A stretch of DNA of 64,000 nucleotides, from assembly GCA_016870355.1 (NCBI GenBank), contig VGBR01000009.1, positions 1-64,000 of the forward strand. The letters run 5' to 3'. This document shows, piece by piece, positions 19,878 to 30,471 of the stretch (within the stretch, counting starts at the first letter, position 1; every line of letters begins with the position of its first letter). The stretch comes from Actinomycetota bacterium (GTDB taxonomy: Bacteria; Actinomycetota; Acidimicrobiia; IMCC26256; PALSA-555). Under the pieces are notes generated by a model. The model searched no databases, was not told the origin of the DNA, and worked only from the letters and a program-made list of their open reading frames with translations. A program made the position numbers and the translations under genes.

Positions 19878-20633
19878 TCACGCTCCCACAGCGTGGAAGC
19901 CGCCGTCGACGTGCAACATCTCACCGGTGGTCGCCGGGAAGAGGTCGGACAGGAGCGCGACGCACGCTTGCGCGACCGGCTCCGGGTCCTTGACGTCCCA
20001 GCCCAGTGGCGAGCGCTGGGCCCAGACCTCTTCGAACGCTTCGAACCCCGGGATGCTCTTCGCCGCGATGGTTCGCACCGGACCCGCCGACACGAGGTTC
20101 ACGCGGATCTTCTTCGGGCCGAGGTCGCGCGCGAGGTAGCGGGCCACAGACTCGAACGCCGACTTGGCAACCCCCATCCAGTCGTAGACGGGCCACGCCT
20201 GCGTGTTGTCGAAGTCGAGGCCAACGATCGAGCCGCCTTCGCTCATGAGCGGCAGCGCCGCGACCGCGAGCGCTTTCAGCGAGTAGGCCGACACCTGGAG
20301 GGCGACCGCGACGTCCTCCCAGGGCGCTTCCAAGAAGCCGCCGCCGAGGCACGACTCCGGCGCGAACGCGATCGCATGCATGACGCCGTCGAGGTGGCCA
20401 CCGACTCGCCCGGCGAGTGCGTCGAGGTCTTCCGGGCTGGAGACGTCGAGCTCGACGATCTCGGGCATGGTGGGCAGGCGCTTGGCGGTGCGCTGCGTGA
20501 GGCTCATCACCCGACCGAACGACGTGAGCACGACCTCGGCGCCCTCTTCCTGCGCACGTCGCGCGACCGAGAACGCGATCGATGCGTCGTTGAGGACGCC
20601 CGTCACGAGGATGCGCTTGCCGTCGAGCAACAT
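19878..20633 (-). CDS. fabI: Enoyl-ACP reductase (InhA/FabI type)
   Basis: FabI reduces trans-2-enoyl-ACP in the last step of each elongation round, using NAD(P)H. The 251-residue short-chain dehydrogenase has the FabI catalytic pair Tyr150 and Lys157 in YDWMGVAK. GGSIVGLDF and the substrate loop are like mycobacterial InhA. The ATG at 20633 (MLLDGKRILVTGV) gives normal length; the open frame upstream overlaps the carboxyltransferase gene. It is last in the fab operon, 11 nt after the carboxyltransferase, and ends at a hairpin. Confidence 0.95.
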   Translation of the reverse strand: MLLDGKRILVTGVLNDASIAFSVARRAQEEGAEVVLTSFGRVMSLTQRTAKRLPTMPEIVELDVSSPEDLDALAGRVGGHLDGVMHAIAFAPESCLGGGFLEAPWEDVAVALQVSAYSLKALAVAALPLMSEGGSIVGLDFDNTQAWPVYDWMGVAKSAFESVARYLARDLGPKKIRVNLVSAGPVRTIAAKSIPGFEAFEEVWAQRSPLGWDVKDPEPVAQACVALLSDLFPATTGEMLHVDGGFHAVGA

Positions 20634-20644
20634 GGCGGAGCAGG

Positions 20645-22042
20645 TTACAGCGGGGTGTTGCCGTGCCGTCGCGTCGGGCGGACCTCGGACTTGTACGACA
20701 GCCGATCGATGGCCGCGGCAAGCGCGCGACGGGTGTCGACGGCGGCGAGCACCTCGTCCACGAAGCCCCGCTCGGCCGCGATGTAGGGATTCGCGAACAT
20801 GTCCTCGTACTCCCGCTCGAGCGTGGCCTGTTCCTGCACGCGCGCCTCCGGGTCCTCGATGGCTCGCACCCGTCGTCCGTGCAGGATCTGCACCGCACCG
20901 GGCGCACCCATCACCGCGATCTCCGCGTTCGGCCATGCGCCGACCCAGTCGTTGCCGAGCCCCTTCGAGTCCATGACGATGTACGCGCCGCCGTAGGCCT
21001 TGCGCAACACGACCGCGACCCTTGGCACCGACGCGGCGGCGTACGCGTAGACGAGCTCGGCGCCGTGGCGGATCATCCCGCGCCACTCGAGGTCTTTGCC
21101 GGGCTCGAAGCCGGGTGTGTCGACGAACGTGACGATCGGTAGGTTGAAGCAGTCGCACCACTGCACGAAGCGCGCCGCCTTCTCCGACGCTTCGATGTCG
21201 ATCGTGCCCGCGCGCTGGTGTGGCTGGTTCGCGACGATGCCAACCGGCCGACCGTCGAGCCGACCGAACCCGGTGACGAGGTTGGGCGCGTGACCGGCAC
21301 GGATCTCGAGGAAGGTGTGCTCGTCGAGCACGTCCTCGATGACGGCGCGCACGTCGTACGACGCGGTCGGTTGCGCGGGAACCACTTCGGAGGCGCGGGT
21401 GCAGTCGCGATCGACGGGATCACCGGTGTCGACACGAGGGGGGTCGTCGAGATGGTTGGCGGGGAGGTAGTCGAGGACCGCGGCGACCACTTCACGCGCA
21501 CCTTCTTCGTCAGGAACGACGAACGACGCCACGCCGCTGCGCGTGCCGTGCATCGGGGCGCCACCCAGCACACGGTTGCTGATGTCGATGCCGGTGAACG
21601 CACGCACGACGTCGGGACCGGTGACGAAGGCGAACGCGTCGTCGGTCATCACCACCACGTCAGCGATGCCGAGGAGCAGCGCGGGACCCGACACCGCGGG
21701 CCCGACGACGGTGAGGATCGTCGGAACGACGCCTGACGCGCTCGCCAGTGCGCTTGCGACGCGACCCCACCCGTGCAGCGACGCGATGCCCTCGACGACG
21801 TCGGCGCCAGACGACGCGACCGTGCCGACCACGGGGATGCCGAGCTCGATCGCGACACGGATCGCGCGTTCGAGCACCTCGCCTTCCGGCGGTCCGATCG
21901 CGCCGACGTGCTTGCCGCCCTCGAGGCGGAACGAGCTGACCGGTCGCCCGTCGATCTCGGTGACACACGCGGTTGCCGTCTCGCTCTGGCGTCCGCCGAG
22001 CGGTGTGGTCCCGCTGGGGTCGGTCAGGGCGATGTCGGTCAA
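20645..22042 (-). CDS. Acyl-CoA (acetyl-CoA) carboxylase carboxyltransferase
   Basis: This 465-residue enzyme has two crotonase-fold halves, as in PccB/AccD-type carboxyltransferases that move CO2 from biotin to acetyl-, propionyl- or similar CoA. The C-terminal half is well conserved (FVDTPGFEPG, RKAYGGAYIVMDSKGLGND, WPNAEIAVMGAPGAVQI). The N-terminal half is short compared with 510-540-residue PccB proteins. The start is TTG at 22042, overlapping the fabF stop (TTGA). Its position between fabF and fabI suggests that it makes malonyl-CoA for fatty-acid synthesis. No biotin carboxylase gene is in the window, and the carrier-like gene in the same operon lacks the biotin lysine. Confidence 0.87.
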   Translation of the reverse strand: MTDIALTDPSGTTPLGGRQSETATACVTEIDGRPVSSFRLEGGKHVGAIGPPEGEVLERAIRVAIELGIPVVGTVASSGADVVEGIASLHGWGRVASALASASGVVPTILTVVGPAVSGPALLLGIADVVVMTDDAFAFVTGPDVVRAFTGIDISNRVLGGAPMHGTRSGVASFVVPDEEGAREVVAAVLDYLPANHLDDPPRVDTGDPVDRDCTRASEVVPAQPTASYDVRAVIEDVLDEHTFLEIRAGHAPNLVTGFGRLDGRPVGIVANQPHQRAGTIDIEASEKAARFVQWCDCFNLPIVTFVDTPGFEPGKDLEWRGMIRHGAELVYAYAAASVPRVAVVLRKAYGGAYIVMDSKGLGNDWVGAWPNAEIAVMGAPGAVQILHGRRVRAIEDPEARVQEQATLEREYEDMFANPYIAAERGFVDEVLAAVDTRRALAAAIDRLSYKSEVRPTRRHGNTPL

Positions 22043-23295
22043 GTGCTCGGGATCAGCACCAGGCTCGCGTTGTGGCCGCCGAAGCCGAACGAGTTCGAGA
22101 CGACCGGCTTCGATCCAACCTCGCGCGGCGAGCCCGCGATCACGTCGAGCCCGATGTCGTCACCGACCCGCTCGAGGTTCGCCGTGGGGGGCGCGACACC
22201 GTCACGGATCGAGAGCATCGACGCCGCCGCTTCCGCAGCACCGGCCCCGGCGATCATGTGCCCGAGTGAGCCCTTGTTGGACGTGACTGGTGGCGGTTCG
22301 TCGCCGAAGACCTTGCGGACGGCTTCGCCCTCGGCCGCGTCGTTCAGCTCGGTGGACGTGCCGTGCGCGTTGACGTGACCGATCGCGCTCGCCTCCAACC
22401 CCGCGTCGTCGAGCGCTTGCTGCATGCACGCCGCCGCACCCGTACCACCCGGCGATGGCGCAGTGATGTGGTACGCGTCGGAGTTGCGGCCGTAGCCCGC
22501 GACCTCGCCGTAGATGCGCGCGCCGCGAGCCTTGGCACGATCGAGCGTCTCCAGCACGAGGAACGCCGCGCCTTCCGCGATGACGAACCCGTCGCGGTCG
22601 GCGTCGAACGGTCGTGACGCGCGTGACGGGTCGTCGTTTTGACTGCTCAGCGCGCCCATGCGGGCGAAGGCGGCGATGGTGATCGGGGTGAGCGGAAACT
22701 CCGCGCCACCGGCAAGCACGACATCGGCCGAACCGTCGCGGATCAGCCGCGCGCCTTCACCGATCGCGTTCGTGCCCGCCGCGCACGCGGTGGCGACACA
22801 CAGCGCTGGTCCCGTCCACCCGAAGTGCATGGAGATCACACCCGCCGTTGCGTTGGGCATCATCATCGGCACGAAGAACGGGCTGACGCGGCCAGGACCG
22901 CGTTCGAAGTAGTTGCGGCAGTTCTCCTCGAGCGTGCTCAGGCCGCCGATACCGGTGGACGCCATGACCGCGCAACGGTCCGGATCGGCGTTCACCTCAC
23001 CCGCATCGGCGAGCGCGTCGGCGGCCGCGGTGAACCCGAGGTGCGTGACGCGGTCGAGGCGCCGCGCCTCCTTCGGCCCGAGATAGGTCTCGGGGTTGAA
23101 GTCTTCGGGCACCTCGCACGCGATGTGCACGTTCTGGTCCGACGAGTCGAAGCAGCGGATCGTGTCCGCGGTCGCGCGACCGGCGAGGAGCGTCTCCCAG
23201 AACGTGTCGACGTCGGTGCCGGCCGGGGTCTTGACCCCCAGGCCGGTGACTGCGACGCGCGGCCGACCGCGATGATCCCTGAGCGAGTCGCTCAT
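22039..23295 (-). CDS. fabF: 3-oxoacyl-ACP synthase II (KAS II)
   Basis: FabF condenses acyl-ACP with malonyl-ACP in chain elongation. The 418 residues have the KAS II Cys-His-His triad: Cys171 in [12 protein letters not shown], His in NAHGTST (about 309) and His in [13 protein letters not shown] (about 345). It overlaps acpP by 4 nt (ATGA) and the following carboxyltransferase by 4 nt, so the three are translationally linked. Confidence 0.96.
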
Positions 23296-23543
23296 CCCTT
23301 GTCTTGCACCTTCCCGAGCACGAGATCGACGGCCGCTCCGACCGTCGTGACGCCCTCGAGGTCTTCCTCGGGCACCGAGATGTCGAAGCGCTCTTCGAGC
23401 CCCATCACGAGCTCCACCAGGTCGAGGCTGTCAGCCTCGAGGTCCTCCTTGAAGCGGGCCTCGAAGGTGACGACGTCGGGCTCGACGCTCAGCACCTCGA
23501 CGGCCACGTCTCGCAGCGCGGCGAGTGCTTCGTCACGATCCAT
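23292..23543 (-). CDS. acpP: Acyl carrier protein
   Basis: This is a small acidic carrier that holds growing acyl chains on phosphopantetheine. The attachment site is Ser39 in EADSLDLVEL. The ATG at 23543 is preferred over the ATG at 23552: the strong site AAAGGAG abuts the upstream ATG directly but stands 9 nt before the downstream one. This gives an 83-residue protein (MDRDEALAAL), a usual size. It lies 63 nt after fabG and overlaps fabF by 4 nt. Confidence 0.95.
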   Translation of the reverse strand: MDRDEALAALRDVAVEVLSVEPDVVTFEARFKEDLEADSLDLVELVMGLEERFDISVPEEDLEGVTTVGAAVDLVLGKVQDKG

Positions 23544-23606
23544 CTCTTGCATCTCCTTTGCAGTTGGGGCGGCCGGGGCCGGTCCCGTGATCGGATGAGT
23601 CTCGGG

Positions 23607-24353
23607 TCAGTGCCCCATGCCAAGGCCGCCATCGACCGGGACGAGCGCTCCGGTGATGTACCCAGCCGGCTCCGAGCACAGATAACCCACCACAGACGCC
23701 ACTTCTTCGGGGTTTCCCAGCCTTCCCAGGGGGACCGTGGCCTCCATGACGGCCCGCCACTCGGCCGGCATGTCTTCGGTCATGGCGGTCACGATAGGCC
23801 CCGGCGCCACGGCATTGCAGGTGATGCCACGGGGTGCGAGCTCCCGAGCGATCGCACGCGTCAGGCCGAGGAGACCCGCCTTGGCCGCGGAGTAGTTGGC
23901 CTGGCCGGCGGCCCCGGCCTGGCCGCTCACCGACGAGACGTTGACGATCCGGCCCCACCGGTTGCGCATCATCTTGGGGGTCGCGCGCCGGATGGCATGG
24001 AAAGCACCGCTCAGGTTCGTGCGCAGCACGTCGCCCCATTGATCGTCGGTCATGCGGGCGACGAGCCCGTCAGCGGTGATGCCCGCGTTGTTCACGAGCA
24101 CCTCGACCGGTCCCCATGCGGCTTCGATCTCGCCGAACGCGGCGTCGACCGCGGCGGGGTTGCCGACGTCGGCTTGCACTGCGAGCGCGGTGCCGCCTTC
24201 GCCTTCGATGTCGGCCTGTGCGTCCTTCGCGCCGTCGCTCGACGAGCAGCACGCAACCCGATGACCGGCGCGCGCCAGCTCGACGGCGATCGCGCGCCCG
24301 ATCCCTCTGGATGCGCCGGTGACGAGCGCCACCCGCGACTGGACTTCGCTCAC
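23607..24353 (-). CDS. fabG: 3-oxoacyl-ACP reductase
   Basis: FabG reduces 3-ketoacyl-ACP with NADPH. The 248-residue short-chain dehydrogenase has the cofactor motif TGASRGIGR at 12-20, NNAG near 88, the catalytic Ser in NVSSVSG (about 140-143), and Tyr154 and Lys158 in YSAAK. The C-terminus (ITGALVPVDGGLGMGH) is typical. The GTG start overlaps the fabH stop (GTGA). Confidence 0.95.
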   Translation of the reverse strand: MSEVQSRVALVTGASRGIGRAIAVELARAGHRVACCSSSDGAKDAQADIEGEGGTALAVQADVGNPAAVDAAFGEIEAAWGPVEVLVNNAGITADGLVARMTDDQWGDVLRTNLSGAFHAIRRATPKMMRNRWGRIVNVSSVSGQAGAAGQANYSAAKAGLLGLTRAIARELAPRGITCNAVAPGPIVTAMTEDMPAEWRAVMEATVPLGRLGNPEEVASVVGYLCSEPAGYITGALVPVDGGLGMGH

Positions 24354-25342
24354 GGGCGACCCCAGCGCACGACTGCGCTGCCCCAGGTCATTCCGGCGCC
24401 GAAGCCGCTCATCAGCACGACCGCGCCGTCTTCGAGTCGACCGGTGTCGGCGGCCTCGGCCATCGCGAGCGGGATCGACGCAGCCGAGGTGTTGCCGAAG
24501 CGATCGATGTTCACGATGGTGCGTTCGGCCGGGATGCCGAGCCGAGCGGCGGCGGCCTCGATGATGCGCGCGTTCGCCTGGTGCGGCACGAACCAGTCGA
24601 CGTCGGCGCCCGTCATGCCCGCGAGGGCAAGTGCGCGCTTCACGGATTCGACGACGGCGCGCACGGCGCGCTTGAACACCTCTTGTCCTTGCATCTTGAT
24701 GTACTGCTCACCGGCCGCGATGGTCTCAGGCGTCGCCGGGCGTCGACTCCCGCCGGACGGGATGCCGAGCAGTCCGGTCGCGGAGCCGTCGCACCCGAGG
24801 TCCCATGCGAGGAGGCCGGGTCCGTCGTCGGTCGACGGCGCGAGCACAACACCGGCCGCGCCATCTCCGAACAAGATGCAGGTGCCGCGGTCGCGTGGGT
24901 CGACGACGCGCGACAGCGTTTCGGCGCCGATCACCAGCACGTGACGCAGGTTGCCGGCGGTGAGCAGTGCGGATCCGGTGACGAGCTCGTACACGAACCC
25001 CGCGCACCCGGCACCGAGGTCGAACGAACCGCAGTGCACGCCGAGGCCGTCGCACACGAACGCGCCGGTGTGGGGGATCGGCTGCTCGGGAGTGGCGGTC
25101 GCGACGATGACGAGGTCGATCTCTTCGGGCGTGATCCCGGCTTGCTTGATGGCAGCGGTGCCGGCCTCGATGGCAAGGCTCGCGGTGGTCTCACCGTCCG
25201 CGGCGTAGCGCCGCTCACGGATGCCGGTGCGCTCGACGATCCACTCGTCTGACGTCTCGACACGCTGCTCGAGGTCGGCGTTGGTCAAGCGCTGCTCGGG
25301 GACTGCCGTTCCCCAACCGACGATCGCCGCCCGGCCAGCCAC
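24350..25342 (-). CDS. fabH: 3-oxoacyl-ACP synthase III (KAS III)
   Basis: FabH starts fatty-acid synthesis by condensing an acyl-CoA primer with malonyl-ACP. The 330 residues have the KAS III triad: Cys113 in GAGCAGF, His in PHQANARI, and Asn in FGNTSAASIP. The start is GTG at 25342, 90 nt after the carrier-like gene. Primer specificity (straight versus branched) cannot be read with certainty. Confidence 0.95.
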   Translation of the reverse strand: MAGRAAIVGWGTAVPEQRLTNADLEQRVETSDEWIVERTGIRERRYAADGETTASLAIEAGTAAIKQAGITPEEIDLVIVATATPEQPIPHTGAFVCDGLGVHCGSFDLGAGCAGFVYELVTGSALLTAGNLRHVLVIGAETLSRVVDPRDRGTCILFGDGAAGVVLAPSTDDGPGLLAWDLGCDGSATGLLGIPSGGSRRPATPETIAAGEQYIKMQGQEVFKRAVRAVVESVKRALALAGMTGADVDWFVPHQANARIIEAAAARLGIPAERTIVNIDRFGNTSAASIPLAMAEAADTGRLEDGAVVLMSGFGAGMTWGSAVVRWGRP

Positions 25343-25431: not shown

Positions 25432-25692
25432 TCAGTGGACCCTGAGCCAGGCGATGGGTTGGCCTTCGCGCAGGCGCTCACCGGGGTGGGCGAGCATCCC
25501 TACGAGTCGGCCGGCGAACGGGCTCGCCACCGGGGTGGACGTGCCGGGGCCGTCGACCATGCCGACAGTCTGGCCGGGGGTGACATGGGCGCCCTCGTCG
25601 AGATCGACCGGGCGGAACACGCCGACCGATGGCGCGACGATCATCCGTTCAGGCACGAGCAGTCCTTCACCCACGTCGATGAGCGCTTCCAT
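25432..25692 (-). CDS. Biotinyl/lipoyl-like domain protein lacking the attachment lysine
   Basis: This 86-residue protein is a single biotinyl/lipoyl fold: GVFRPVDLDEGAHVTPGQTV, then GMVDGPGTSTPVASPFAG, and a final hammerhead-like GERLREGQPIAWLRV. In biotin carriers the turn between these strands is AMKM with the modified lysine. Here the turn reads DGPGTSTP and contains no lysine at all, so it cannot be biotinylated or lipoylated in the normal way. It starts 1 nt after the fabD stop and is followed by fabH, firmly within the operon. It may be a structural or regulatory part of the carboxylase; otherwise its role is unknown. Confidence 0.72.
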   Translation of the reverse strand: MEALIDVGEGLLVPERMIVAPSVGVFRPVDLDEGAHVTPGQTVGMVDGPGTSTPVASPFAGRLVGMLAHPGERLREGQPIAWLRVH

Positions 25693-25693
25693 G

Positions 25694-26608
25694 TCAGCCG
25701 ACCTCCGCCAGCAGCGCGCAGTCTTCGGGGGTGGCGATGCCGCGCACCGCCAGATCGGGGACCGTCCGCTTCGCGAGCCCCGCGAGCATCGCGCCGTGCC
25801 CCACCTCCAAGAAAGAGGTCGCGCCGAGGTCGGCCATCGTCTGCATCGACTCGCGCCACCGCACCGGCACCGCGACGTGCTCGGCCGAGCGCTGATGCCA
25901 ATCATCGCGATCACTGTGCGCCGCGGCGTCGAGGTTTGACACGACCGGTGCCGCGGGCGTCTCGAACGTCACGTTGGCGAGCTCGGCGGGGAGCGCGTCG
26001 GCGGCGTCGCGCATCAAAGGCGTGTGGAACGCGCCACCCACGTTGAGCGGTGTCGCGCGCTTCACGCCGATCTCCTTGGCGCGGGCGCTCGCGGCCTCCA
26101 CTCCATCAGGTGTGCCGGCGACGACCACTTGTCCCGGCGCGTTGTCGTTCGCGATCCATGCGCCGTCGAGCGCGGCCGCGCACGCCTCCGCGGCCTGTTC
26201 GACGGTCGCGCCGAGCAGCGCGGCCATCTTGCCGGGGTGGGCGTCGGCTGCGGCTTGCGTGAGCTCGGCGCGCCGAGCCGCGAACCGCACGCCGTCCTCC
26301 AGGGGGAGCGCACCCGAGGCGATCAGCGCCGTCACCTGCCCGAGCGAGTGCCCGGCGAACGCGACTGGCGCGGCTACGTCGTCCCGGATGGCTTCCCAGG
26401 CGATCAGTGAGGTGAGGAGGACGCAGAGCTGAGCCTCGCGGGTGCGGGCGAGGCGCTCGGCCGGGGCGTCGAGGATGAGGTCGGCGAGCGGCTCACCGAA
26501 CGCGGCTTCGGCCCGCTCGACGATGGACCAGGCCGCGTGGTCGCGCCAGGGCGCGCCCATGCCCGGTACCTGTGTCCCTTGTCCAGGGAAGATGACAGCG
26601 ATTCCCAC
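25694..26608 (-). CDS. fabD: Malonyl-CoA:ACP transacylase
   Basis: FabD loads malonyl groups on ACP. The 304-residue protein opens with the family signature IAVIFPGQGTQ. The nucleophile Ser88 is in GHSLGQ, where most homologues have GHSLGE. The catalytic His is in GGAFHTPLM. The GTG at 26608 was chosen because it is directly before the conserved N-terminal strand and follows GGAGAGGG; the longer frame runs into the fabZ promoter. It is the first gene of the minus-strand fab operon. Confidence 0.94.
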   Translation of the reverse strand: MGIAVIFPGQGTQVPGMGAPWRDHAAWSIVERAEAAFGEPLADLILDAPAERLARTREAQLCVLLTSLIAWEAIRDDVAAPVAFAGHSLGQVTALIASGALPLEDGVRFAARRAELTQAAADAHPGKMAALLGATVEQAAEACAAALDGAWIANDNAPGQVVVAGTPDGVEAASARAKEIGVKRATPLNVGGAFHTPLMRDAADALPAELANVTFETPAAPVVSNLDAAAHSDRDDWHQRSAEHVAVPVRWRESMQTMADLGATSFLEVGHGAMLAGLAKRTVPDLAVRGIATPEDCALLAEVG

Positions 26609-26712
26609 GCGAGAAGGCCCTCTCCGCACTTGCGCCTCAACTAGGACCGCGTCGCTCCGAGGCGGGTTACACGTCAGACGCGCTCTGTAGCGCAGCGGTA
26701 ACTTGCCGGGCG

Positions 26713-27159
26713 ATGCCGTTGCCCGACTCCGCCGAGCTCGTGGCATTGCTGCCACACCGCCCACCGTTCCTCTTCATCGATGCGGTCGATGCGTTCCAGT
26801 CAGGATCGTCCATTACTGCTCGGTATCGAGTAACGGGCGACGAGAATTTCCTCTCCGGCCACTTTCCCGGCAACCCCGTGTTCCCTGGGGTGATCCAGCT
26901 CGAGGCCATGGCTCAGGCCGGTGCCATCGCAGTGCTCGCCGATCAGCGTTACGGCGGCAAGCTCCCGCTCTTCGGTGGCGTGGAGAAGGTGCGGTGGCGG
27001 CGGATCGTGCGCCCGGGCGAAGAGCTCGTGATGACCGTCGAGCTCGAGCGGCTCAGCGCCCGGGGCGGTTGGGGCGGAGGCACCGCCACGGTCGACGGGG
27101 CCGTGGCGTGTCAGGCGCGCCTCTTCTTCGCGCTGGCTGACGCCTCGCCCGACCGCTAG
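26713..27159 (+). CDS. fabZ: 3-hydroxyacyl-ACP dehydratase
   Basis: FabZ removes water from 3-hydroxyacyl-ACP. The 148-residue hot-dog protein has the active-site His50 and Glu64 in GHFPGNPVFPGVIQLEAMAQ and the N-terminal LLPHRPPFLFID. It is the only gene of the pathway here on the plus strand, divergent from fabD with 104 bp between starts, so both arms probably share a regulated promoter region. Confidence 0.94.
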   Translation: MPLPDSAELVALLPHRPPFLFIDAVDAFQSGSSITARYRVTGDENFLSGHFPGNPVFPGVIQLEAMAQAGAIAVLADQRYGGKLPLFGGVEKVRWRRIVRPGEELVMTVELERLSARGGWGGGTATVDGAVACQARLFFALADASPDR

Positions 27160-29101: not shown

Positions 29102-29860
29102 CTACAAGCCGCAGAGGACCTTCAGGGTGGGATAGGGGCTCACCATCTGGCCGCTAGGCGCGCGGATCCCGAAGTGTGTGTGGGGCGGGCCGCCGGCGGC
29201 GTTGCCGGTGTCGCCGGTGAAGCCGATCACGTCACCGCGGGTGACGCGGCGCGGCAGTCCTTCGATCTTGAGGAGGTGCGCGTAGTAGGACACCCCGTCG
29301 TCGCCGTGGACCCACACGCTGATGCCGCCGAGCTCGATCTCCATCTCCATCTCGCCGTCCATCACCGCGAGGTTGGGCGTGCCGTGCGCATTGAAGAGGT
29401 CGTTGCCCTGGTGCGTCCGCCCACCCGAGCGCGGTGCGCCCCAGTCGTTCACGAATGCCACCGCGCCGTAGATCGGGCACACGGACGCGCCGGTCTCGAC
29501 CGCGCCAGCCGGGGCGGCGTCGGTTCCGGTGAACGTGGCCTTGAAGGCCGCGACGGCTTCGACGCGCTCGAGTGCGATGTTCGCGTTGGCGAGGGCCCGG
29601 TCGAGGGCTTCGCGGTCGCGGGCGAGCCGGAGGACGAGCACGTCTTGGAAGGCCTTGAGCTCCCGCAGGCGCGCCTCTTCGCGCTCGAGCTTGGCCGCGG
29701 TGCGGGTGAGCTCAGCCGCGAGGGCGCGGTCGTACTTGGCTGCGCTCGCCGTGAGTGCCTCCGCTCGGGCCACGTCGATGGCGCGATCGGTGCTGATCAT
29801 CTCGGTGATCGGCATCGATTGCCCGCCCTGGCGGTAGAGGTCGAGCGCATCCCGAGCTTC
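29102..29860 (-). pseudogene. M23 (LytM-type) peptidase, 5' part missing
   Basis: The frame encodes the C-terminal part of a coiled-coil M23 metallopeptidase that cuts peptidoglycan peptides outside the cell. A helical region (REARDALDLYRQGG, then about 100 residues rich in Ala, Arg and Glu) is followed by the M23 domain with THQGNDLF and HTHFG zinc motifs. There is no signal peptide or start: the frame enters directly from the acyl-CoA dehydrogenase gene in another frame near 29850. The first internal ATG (29815) would give a cytoplasmic protein. It appears broken by a deletion that also removed the end of the neighbouring gene. Confidence 0.75.
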
Positions 29861-30471
29861 TCGAGCTTGAGCGACACGCTCACCCCAAGAAGGTCGGTGT
29901 CGATGAGGAGCAGTGAGACGCCGCGGTGCCCGTCCTCTTCGCCGGTGCGCACCACGCAGGTGAGGAAGTCGGCGCGCACGCCATTCGTGATGAACATCTT
30001 GGTGCCATTCACACGCCATGTGTCGCCGTCGCGCACGCCCTTGGTCTTGATGGCCGCCGCGTCCGAACCCGCGTCGGGCTCGGTGATCGCGATGGCAGCG
30101 ATCTTGGTGCCGGCGATCGCCGGACGGAGGTAGCGCTCCTTCTGGTCGTCGGTGCCGAACTCCGCGATCGCGGGCGTGGCCATGTCCGTCTGCACGCCCA
30201 GCGCCATCGCGATCGCACCACAACCCGCTTGGCCGAGCTCTTCGATCAGCACGACCTCCGCGGCAAGGTCGCCGCCCGCGCCGCCCCATTCCTCGGGATA
30301 GTGCAGGCCGAGGAACCCGAGCTCGCCGGCGCGGCGGAACACGTCGTCAGGGAAGAACCCCTTGGCCTCCCAGTCGTCGACGTGCGGACGCAGCTCGGTG
30401 TCGACGAAGTGCCGAACCGACGCTCGGAGCTCGTCGTGATCGGCCAAGAAGATCGGATGCCGTGTGCTCAT
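29797..30471 (-). CDS. Acyl-CoA dehydrogenase, truncated at its 3' end
   Basis: This 224-residue ORF is the N-terminal and middle part of an acyl-CoA dehydrogenase (FAD-dependent beta-oxidation enzymes of about 380 residues). It has HYPEEWGGAGGDLAAEVVLI, the FAD-binding IAITEPDAGSDAAAI, and NGTKMFITNG. Homology stops at SLKLEKLGMRS near residue 208, where the C-terminal helical domain with the catalytic Glu should begin; 16 unrelated residues follow before the stop. The protein should be inactive. The break coincides with the entry of the M23 peptidase frame, so both genes were cut at one junction. Confidence 0.8.
   Translation of the reverse strand: MSTRHPIFLADHDELRASVRHFVDTELRPHVDDWEAKGFFPDDVFRRAGELGFLGLHYPEEWGGAGGDLAAEVVLIEELGQAGCGAIAMALGVQTDMATPAIAEFGTDDQKERYLRPAIAGTKIAAIAITEPDAGSDAAAIKTKGVRDGDTWRVNGTKMFITNGVRADFLTCVVRTGEEDGHRGVSLLLIDTDLLGVSVSLKLEKLGMRSTSTARAGNRCRSPR

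Follow-up and report, generated by a model that had tools for sequence, protein, structure and literature searches.

In the fab cluster of the window (the whole stretch of 64,000 nucleotides that was analysed), the gene between fabD and fabH, hereafter X, codes for a lysine-free protein of predicted biotinyl/lipoyl fold. Its constant partner is FabD. This partnership, which in sister lineages takes the form of a gene fusion, was unforeseen by the initial annotation of this DNA. A second link, to the short carboxyltransferase of the operon (CTx), is one-sided: CTx almost never occurs without X, while X does occur without CTx. The reading we lean towards, without giving it quite an even chance, is that X is a former biotinyl domain which may now act as a non-catalytic docking or adaptor domain of FabD, and that CTx was added to this arrangement in this class.

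The fab cluster and the predicted fold of X

The cluster lies on the minus strand. It begins with fabD (25694..26764 by the ORF as listed, with the conserved part from near 26602), which codes for malonyl-CoA:ACP transacylase with GHSLG present and scores 249 bits against TIGR00128, just below the cut-off of 260.9. One nucleotide lies between the fabD stop and the start codon of X (TGACATG), and X occupies 25432..25692, stop included. Downstream of it follow fabH (24350..25342; TIGR00747, 380 bits), a fabG-like reductase (23607..24353), the acyl carrier protein (23292..23552), a fabF-like ketosynthase (22039..23295), CTx (20645..22042) and, at the cluster end, a fabI-like enoyl-ACP reductase (19878..20603). 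The fabZ dehydratase gene (26713..27159) is divergent, on the plus strand, and adjoins fabD. The fabG- and fabF-like genes were named from ORF reading alone, and the acyl carrier protein, enoyl-ACP reductase and fabZ from a library scan. At window positions 29102-30471 of the minus strand, an acyl-CoA dehydrogenase-like frame (224 aa) ends early and is followed by an M23-peptidase-like frame, possibly marking a broken dehydrogenase; both were named by eye.

The ORF of X runs from M to a final H without internal stop and gives 86 amino acids, none of them lysine. The hairpin DGPGTSTP (residues 47-54; 25531..25554, minus strand) replaces (E)AMKM, with Gly50 in the lysine column. The Pfam model Biotin_lipoyl (PF00364) matches residues 18-81 with an E value of 2.4e-4 and 21.3 bits, slightly under its cut-off of 22.1; six further proteins scanned against it (fused, f92 and f97 forms) were likewise under the cut-off, and the NCBIfam scan of X gave no model at or above its cut-off. 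The AlphaFold model, built on an input alignment of 7 close sequences, had a mean pLDDT of 70 and a pTM of 0.57. In a Foldseek search with this model, biotin carrier domains were among the best matches (2d5d, E 1.5e-4; 1bdo, E 2.0e-4), and VIA-align superposed it on 2d5d with Z 10.2 (rmsd 1.7 over 69) and on E. coli BCCP 4hr7_G with Z 10.2 (rmsd 1.4 over 70). The model thus has the barrel-sandwich fold of biotinyl/lipoyl carriers. These matches, together with the TIGR00128 and TIGR00747 neighbours, bear out the earlier description of a complete carrier-like fold between fabD and fabH, with DGPGTSTP in the place of AMKM and no lysine in the whole protein. X is a real gene, since Ka/Ks was 0.07-0.23 in six of seven pairs of close relatives, indicating purifying selection; the seventh pair, near-identical with Ks 0.01, is uninformative.

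Biotin carriers depend on the hairpin lysine for the attachment of biotin. The genome retains two ordinary carriers, L146 (EAMKM) and L147 (ESMKM); the cell thus has its carriers elsewhere, and the idea that X is the sole one was rejected.

How widely is the lysine lost? The search profile of X, built from 28 rows, matched 159 of 296 genomes of the class and 60 of 396 of the phylum, the weak matches including ordinary carriers (L074, L075). X is held by 38 of the 58 genomes of the window's own order; a first count of 41 of 61 at E <= 0.01 had included G051, where the match is an unrelated long frame, and G059 and G060, which belong to the class only. The matches in the loci examined gave 98 distinct rows, namely 96 X relatives and the two ordinary carriers. 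Both carriers have lysine in the modification column, while none of the 96 X relatives has the lysine of the MKM or DKA hairpin. The idea of a repurposed fold that cannot act as an ordinary carrier is thereby upheld, and a strain-level loss, with orthologues mostly keeping the MKM lysine, is ruled out. The family has a signature of its own, ER..VAP..G.F.P and P.AWLR. Viral contigs searched for X relatives yielded none.

More divergent lysine-free forms, found in f90/f97, were assigned to the family by their match to the profile (E values of about 1e-8 to 1e-11), by the VAP..G.F.P and AW signatures and by their neighbours; they precede a carboxyltransferase (L123, L124) or fabH (L125, L127). 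No FabD was found in the stretches around them, and in all five of the divergent-X genomes searched the contig that bears X also encodes a carboxyltransferase close to it. The same class has another small protein of biotinyl-like type without lysine (L072:3001-3198 and L073:3001-3213, genomes G062 and G067). It lies beside pyrR/pyrB-like genes, joined in L073 by a nusB-like frame, these neighbours being identified by eye; no fab gene was found in these stretches, and the protein is perhaps another pseudo-carrier. One entry titled Bifidobacterium breve (L034, CAMDCC010000112.1) has the same size and match position as contig C112 of G002, from the window's own genus, and its title is probably a mislabel.

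Adjacency and fusion of X with FabD

The gene order fabD-X-fabH was read in 28 of 30 loci of the window's own order. The exceptions are L025, with X directly before a carboxyltransferase, and L026, with no FabD found upstream. Across 99 FabD rows X is the separate next gene in 55, is fused to the C-terminus of FabD in 31 and is absent in 13; on the FabD tree of these rows its state (separate, fused or none) changes seven times in all. In the sister lineages a single frame of some 400 residues begins with FabD and ends, at its C-terminus, with the X match, and the NCBIfam fabD model is above its cut-off for the fusion frames L063 and L078. Two supposed fusions, in G133 and G135, were rejected because X lies in another frame there, and they were counted as separate. 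Outside the class X follows fabD as a separate gene in f60, f65, f92 and f95 (L110-L118, L121, L122, L126, L128, L129), and in f72 it is fused with a full-length hairpin (L119, L120). Being fused to FabD or lying beside it, X thus has the character of a FabD accessory domain.

Most of the 31 fused rows have the hairpin trimmed to about VGDTEV ahead of RSPF. This bears on the idea that X, having a carrier fold by its model, carries something else through an attachment other than the hairpin lysine. The hairpin holds no conserved nucleophile, even its length is not kept in these fusions, and X of the window is entirely lysine-free, so that we regard such a role as highly improbable.

In the own order X is missing three times over while fabD is retained, and FabD can therefore do without it. 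Own-order loci L132, L133, L134, L234 and L235, which are without X, also have no fabH between fabD and fabG, the latter following fabD directly. In two genomes of the class, FabD-like stretches (G103:C125:19046-19906 and G252:C54:10459-11340; L262, L263) lie within open frames of about 2400 aa, which suggests that part of the class has type I synthases.

The short carboxyltransferase and its co-inheritance with X

The CTx protein (465 aa) matches PF01039 from position 53 only, the first 52 positions of the model being unmatched. Its N-domain motifs are altered: the window protein has SSGAD for SGGAR and GPAVSGPAL for GPCAGGAVY, and most rows have S/TSGAD and GPCVSGPAL at these places. The N-domain is the basis for one more reading, that CTx and X form a pseudo-carboxylase pair that senses malonyl-CoA or acyl-ACP to tune FabD and FabH, or that CTx decarboxylates malonyl-ACP without biotin. 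A comparable arrangement is malonate decarboxylase, where a FabD-like subunit, ACP and carboxyltransferase-like subunits act together, and FabD of the window also matches MdcH. However, the C-domain retains RKAYGGAY and most of it matches active enzymes, and the glycine pair of the N-domain varies also in an ordinary carboxyltransferase of the same genome (GAGAR in L151). We consider this reading improbable.

Operons of the own order fall into two arrangements. Those with X read fabF-carboxyltransferase-fabI (e.g. L035, L036, L038, L039, L227, L228), and those without X read fabF-fabI, the carboxyltransferase being absent (L171, L172, L173, L175, L176, L234); G047 (L221) is the sole operon with X and no carboxyltransferase. 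At the genome level the order has 36 genomes with both genes, 16 with neither, 2 with X only (G047, and G025 on a contig that breaks off in fabF) and 4 with CTx only. These four (G001, G003, G012, G056) were rejected as cases of CTx without X, as the first gene on each contig is fabG, acp or fabF, past the place of X. Among 46 rows with calls for both genes, 39 have both, 6 neither, one X only (G047) and none CTx only.

In the class the same pattern appeared among 273 genomes counted: 120 with both, 135 with neither, 16 with X only and 2 with CTx only, the last being G001 and G012, both with contigs starting downstream of the place of X. The Fisher p value for this table is 1.6e-56, a statistic that ignores relatedness. 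Set aside from it were 23 genomes with weak X matches (E 1e-13 to 1e-6), a mixture of ordinary carriers and divergent X that includes FabD fusions (e.g. G152, G252). The call threshold for CTx, E 1e-128, misses some short-type enzymes, and 14 f32 genomes (13 and G274) with 46-48% identity and long frames were scored as having an ordinary carboxyltransferase. On a tree of 110 rows there are 66 with both, 35 with neither, 9 with X only and none with CTx only; X changes 6 times and CTx 11 times. The co-inheritance thus rests on few independent events, and sign and independent-pair tests fall short of significance for lack of events.

Ten of the 16 X-only genomes of the class were searched again. 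Four have a short-type carboxyltransferase that was just under the cut or a second match (G145, G262, G276, G303), five have the ordinary type alone (G047, G164, G229, G234, G274), and G256 has none. Of the other six, G133 has a carboxyltransferase in its operon, the contig of G025 ends in fabF, and G196, G238, G260 and G278 keep their first call. In f32 the short enzyme was found in X-bearing G204, G252 and G307, not in G274 and not in the X-less f32 genomes examined. It was not found in the X-bearing f21 genomes G060, G065 and G074, nor outside the class in f60, f65, f72, f92 and f95, where none of the 21 genomes with X has it. Co-occurrence of X with a carboxyltransferase, as expected of an acyl-CoA carboxylase subunit, is therefore seen in the class and not outside it.

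Direct neighbourhood gives a further line of evidence. X adjoins a carboxyltransferase gene in L025/L184, and the divergent X does so in L123 and L124. For G048 (L183, L184, L225) a move of X to the carboxyltransferase gene was set aside as a reading, the bin seeming mixed with several fab fragments, and only the adjacency of the two genes on one contig was counted from it.

These data bear on two other roles for X. In the first, X would serve FabD alone, in a structural or regulatory capacity (stability, oligomer state or ACP docking), and the association with CTx would be a by-product of operon history. The FabD link is the broadest association of X and extends to lineages without CTx. But CTx hardly ever occurs in the absence of X, and this holds also for genomes in which X is part of FabD and CTx is encoded at another place; the absences of X and CTx in the order coincide; and X stands directly before the carboxyltransferase in L184, L123 and L124. 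We therefore hold a FabD-only role to be possible but not probable. The second is a dedicated non-catalytic carboxyltransferase subunit, in the manner of BADC or of the epsilon subunit found in actinobacterial acyl-CoA carboxylases, and close to what the initial annotation had proposed. The co-inheritance and the paired genes lend that proposal strong circumstantial support. Its wording, a subunit of the carboxyltransferase, proved too narrow, because FabD is the constant partner, to which X may be fused, and X accompanies FabD outside the class where the short carboxyltransferase is absent. As the whole role of X it appears distinctly unlikely to us.

A proposed docking domain of FabD and its relation to known systems

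A FabD-borne docking domain to which CTx was added in this class is the reading that fits both the one-sided dependence and the broader link with FabD. Docking of CTx could not be the only task of X, since FabD with X and without CTx occurs both in and outside the class. By this reading an ancestral biotinyl domain would have lost its attachment site and become a non-catalytic docking domain of FabD, serving it as a translationally close subunit of its own where the genes are separate and as a C-terminal domain where they are fused. The dedicated CTx of this class would also use the docking surface of X, and the step that makes malonyl-CoA would thereby be brought to FabD, which transfers malonyl to ACP. 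CTx would be an active acetyl-CoA carboxyltransferase, probably supplied by an ordinary biotinylated alpha subunit. What we infer here are the physical contacts of X with FabD and with CTx, the activity of CTx and the channelling. Against the adaptor reading stands the place of CTx in the fused genomes: none of the nine read downstream (L155, L156, L159-L165) has a carboxyltransferase after fabF, and most of them have the short enzyme elsewhere in the genome. A stricter version, which we rate as rather unlikely, is a malonyl-CoA relay in which FabD-borne X mimics the usual carrier of CTx and docks CTx, malonyl-CoA passing straight to FabD and ACP; the hairpin would be trimmed where the fab operon of this class is without a carboxyltransferase.

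To our knowledge, there is no established physical link in bacteria for a direct handover of malonyl-CoA from acetyl-CoA carboxylase to the type II fatty-acid synthase. X, a conserved pseudo-carrier that in some lineages forms one protein with FabD and that is inherited together with CTx, is a concrete candidate for this role. Genes of this type also call for caution against annotation as biotin carriers. In the open PMC literature, a scope that leaves subscription papers and preprints aside, we recognised no account of a biotinyl domain that is free of lysine and is fused to FabD or lies beside it.

Which known systems does X resemble? To biotin carboxyl carrier domains (AccB / BC-BCCP; PF00364) it is close in predicted fold, with Z of about 10, and differs from them in the modifiable lysine, the Pfam score and the family signature. 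We know of no X gene beside accD6. CTx is nearer to PccB-type enzymes (409 bits) than to AccD6 (281 bits). AccD6 is described as a mycobacterial carboxyltransferase under the FAS-II promoter (PMC5311964), and CTx is like AccD6 (473 aa; structures 4fb8 and others) in being a short carboxyltransferase encoded with fatty-acid synthase genes. The same paper presents AccE5, the epsilon subunit of mycobacterial acyl-CoA carboxylases, as non-catalytic and carboxyltransferase-associated (PMC5311964). By this description AccE5 and X are alike in being actinobacterial and tied to a carboxyltransferase, and X differs in its predicted biotinyl fold and its tie to FabD.

The closest parallel in manner of working is with the BADC proteins of plant plastid acetyl-CoA carboxylase. 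They are described as lysine-free biotinyl domains that bind BCCP and biotin carboxylase and form a working, non-catalytic part of the enzyme (PMC11926652). X shares with them a biotinyl-type domain without the AMKL/AMKM lysine and a tie to the malonyl-CoA supply for fatty-acid synthesis. In contrast to BADC, X is bacterial, its gene is linked to FabD and a carboxyltransferase, and it is often fused to FabD, mostly with a trimmed hairpin. The comparison suggests that X may work somewhat like BADC, an analogy in mode of action that does not make X a member of that group; if so, X would be a case of pseudo-carrier evolution parallel to that of plants.
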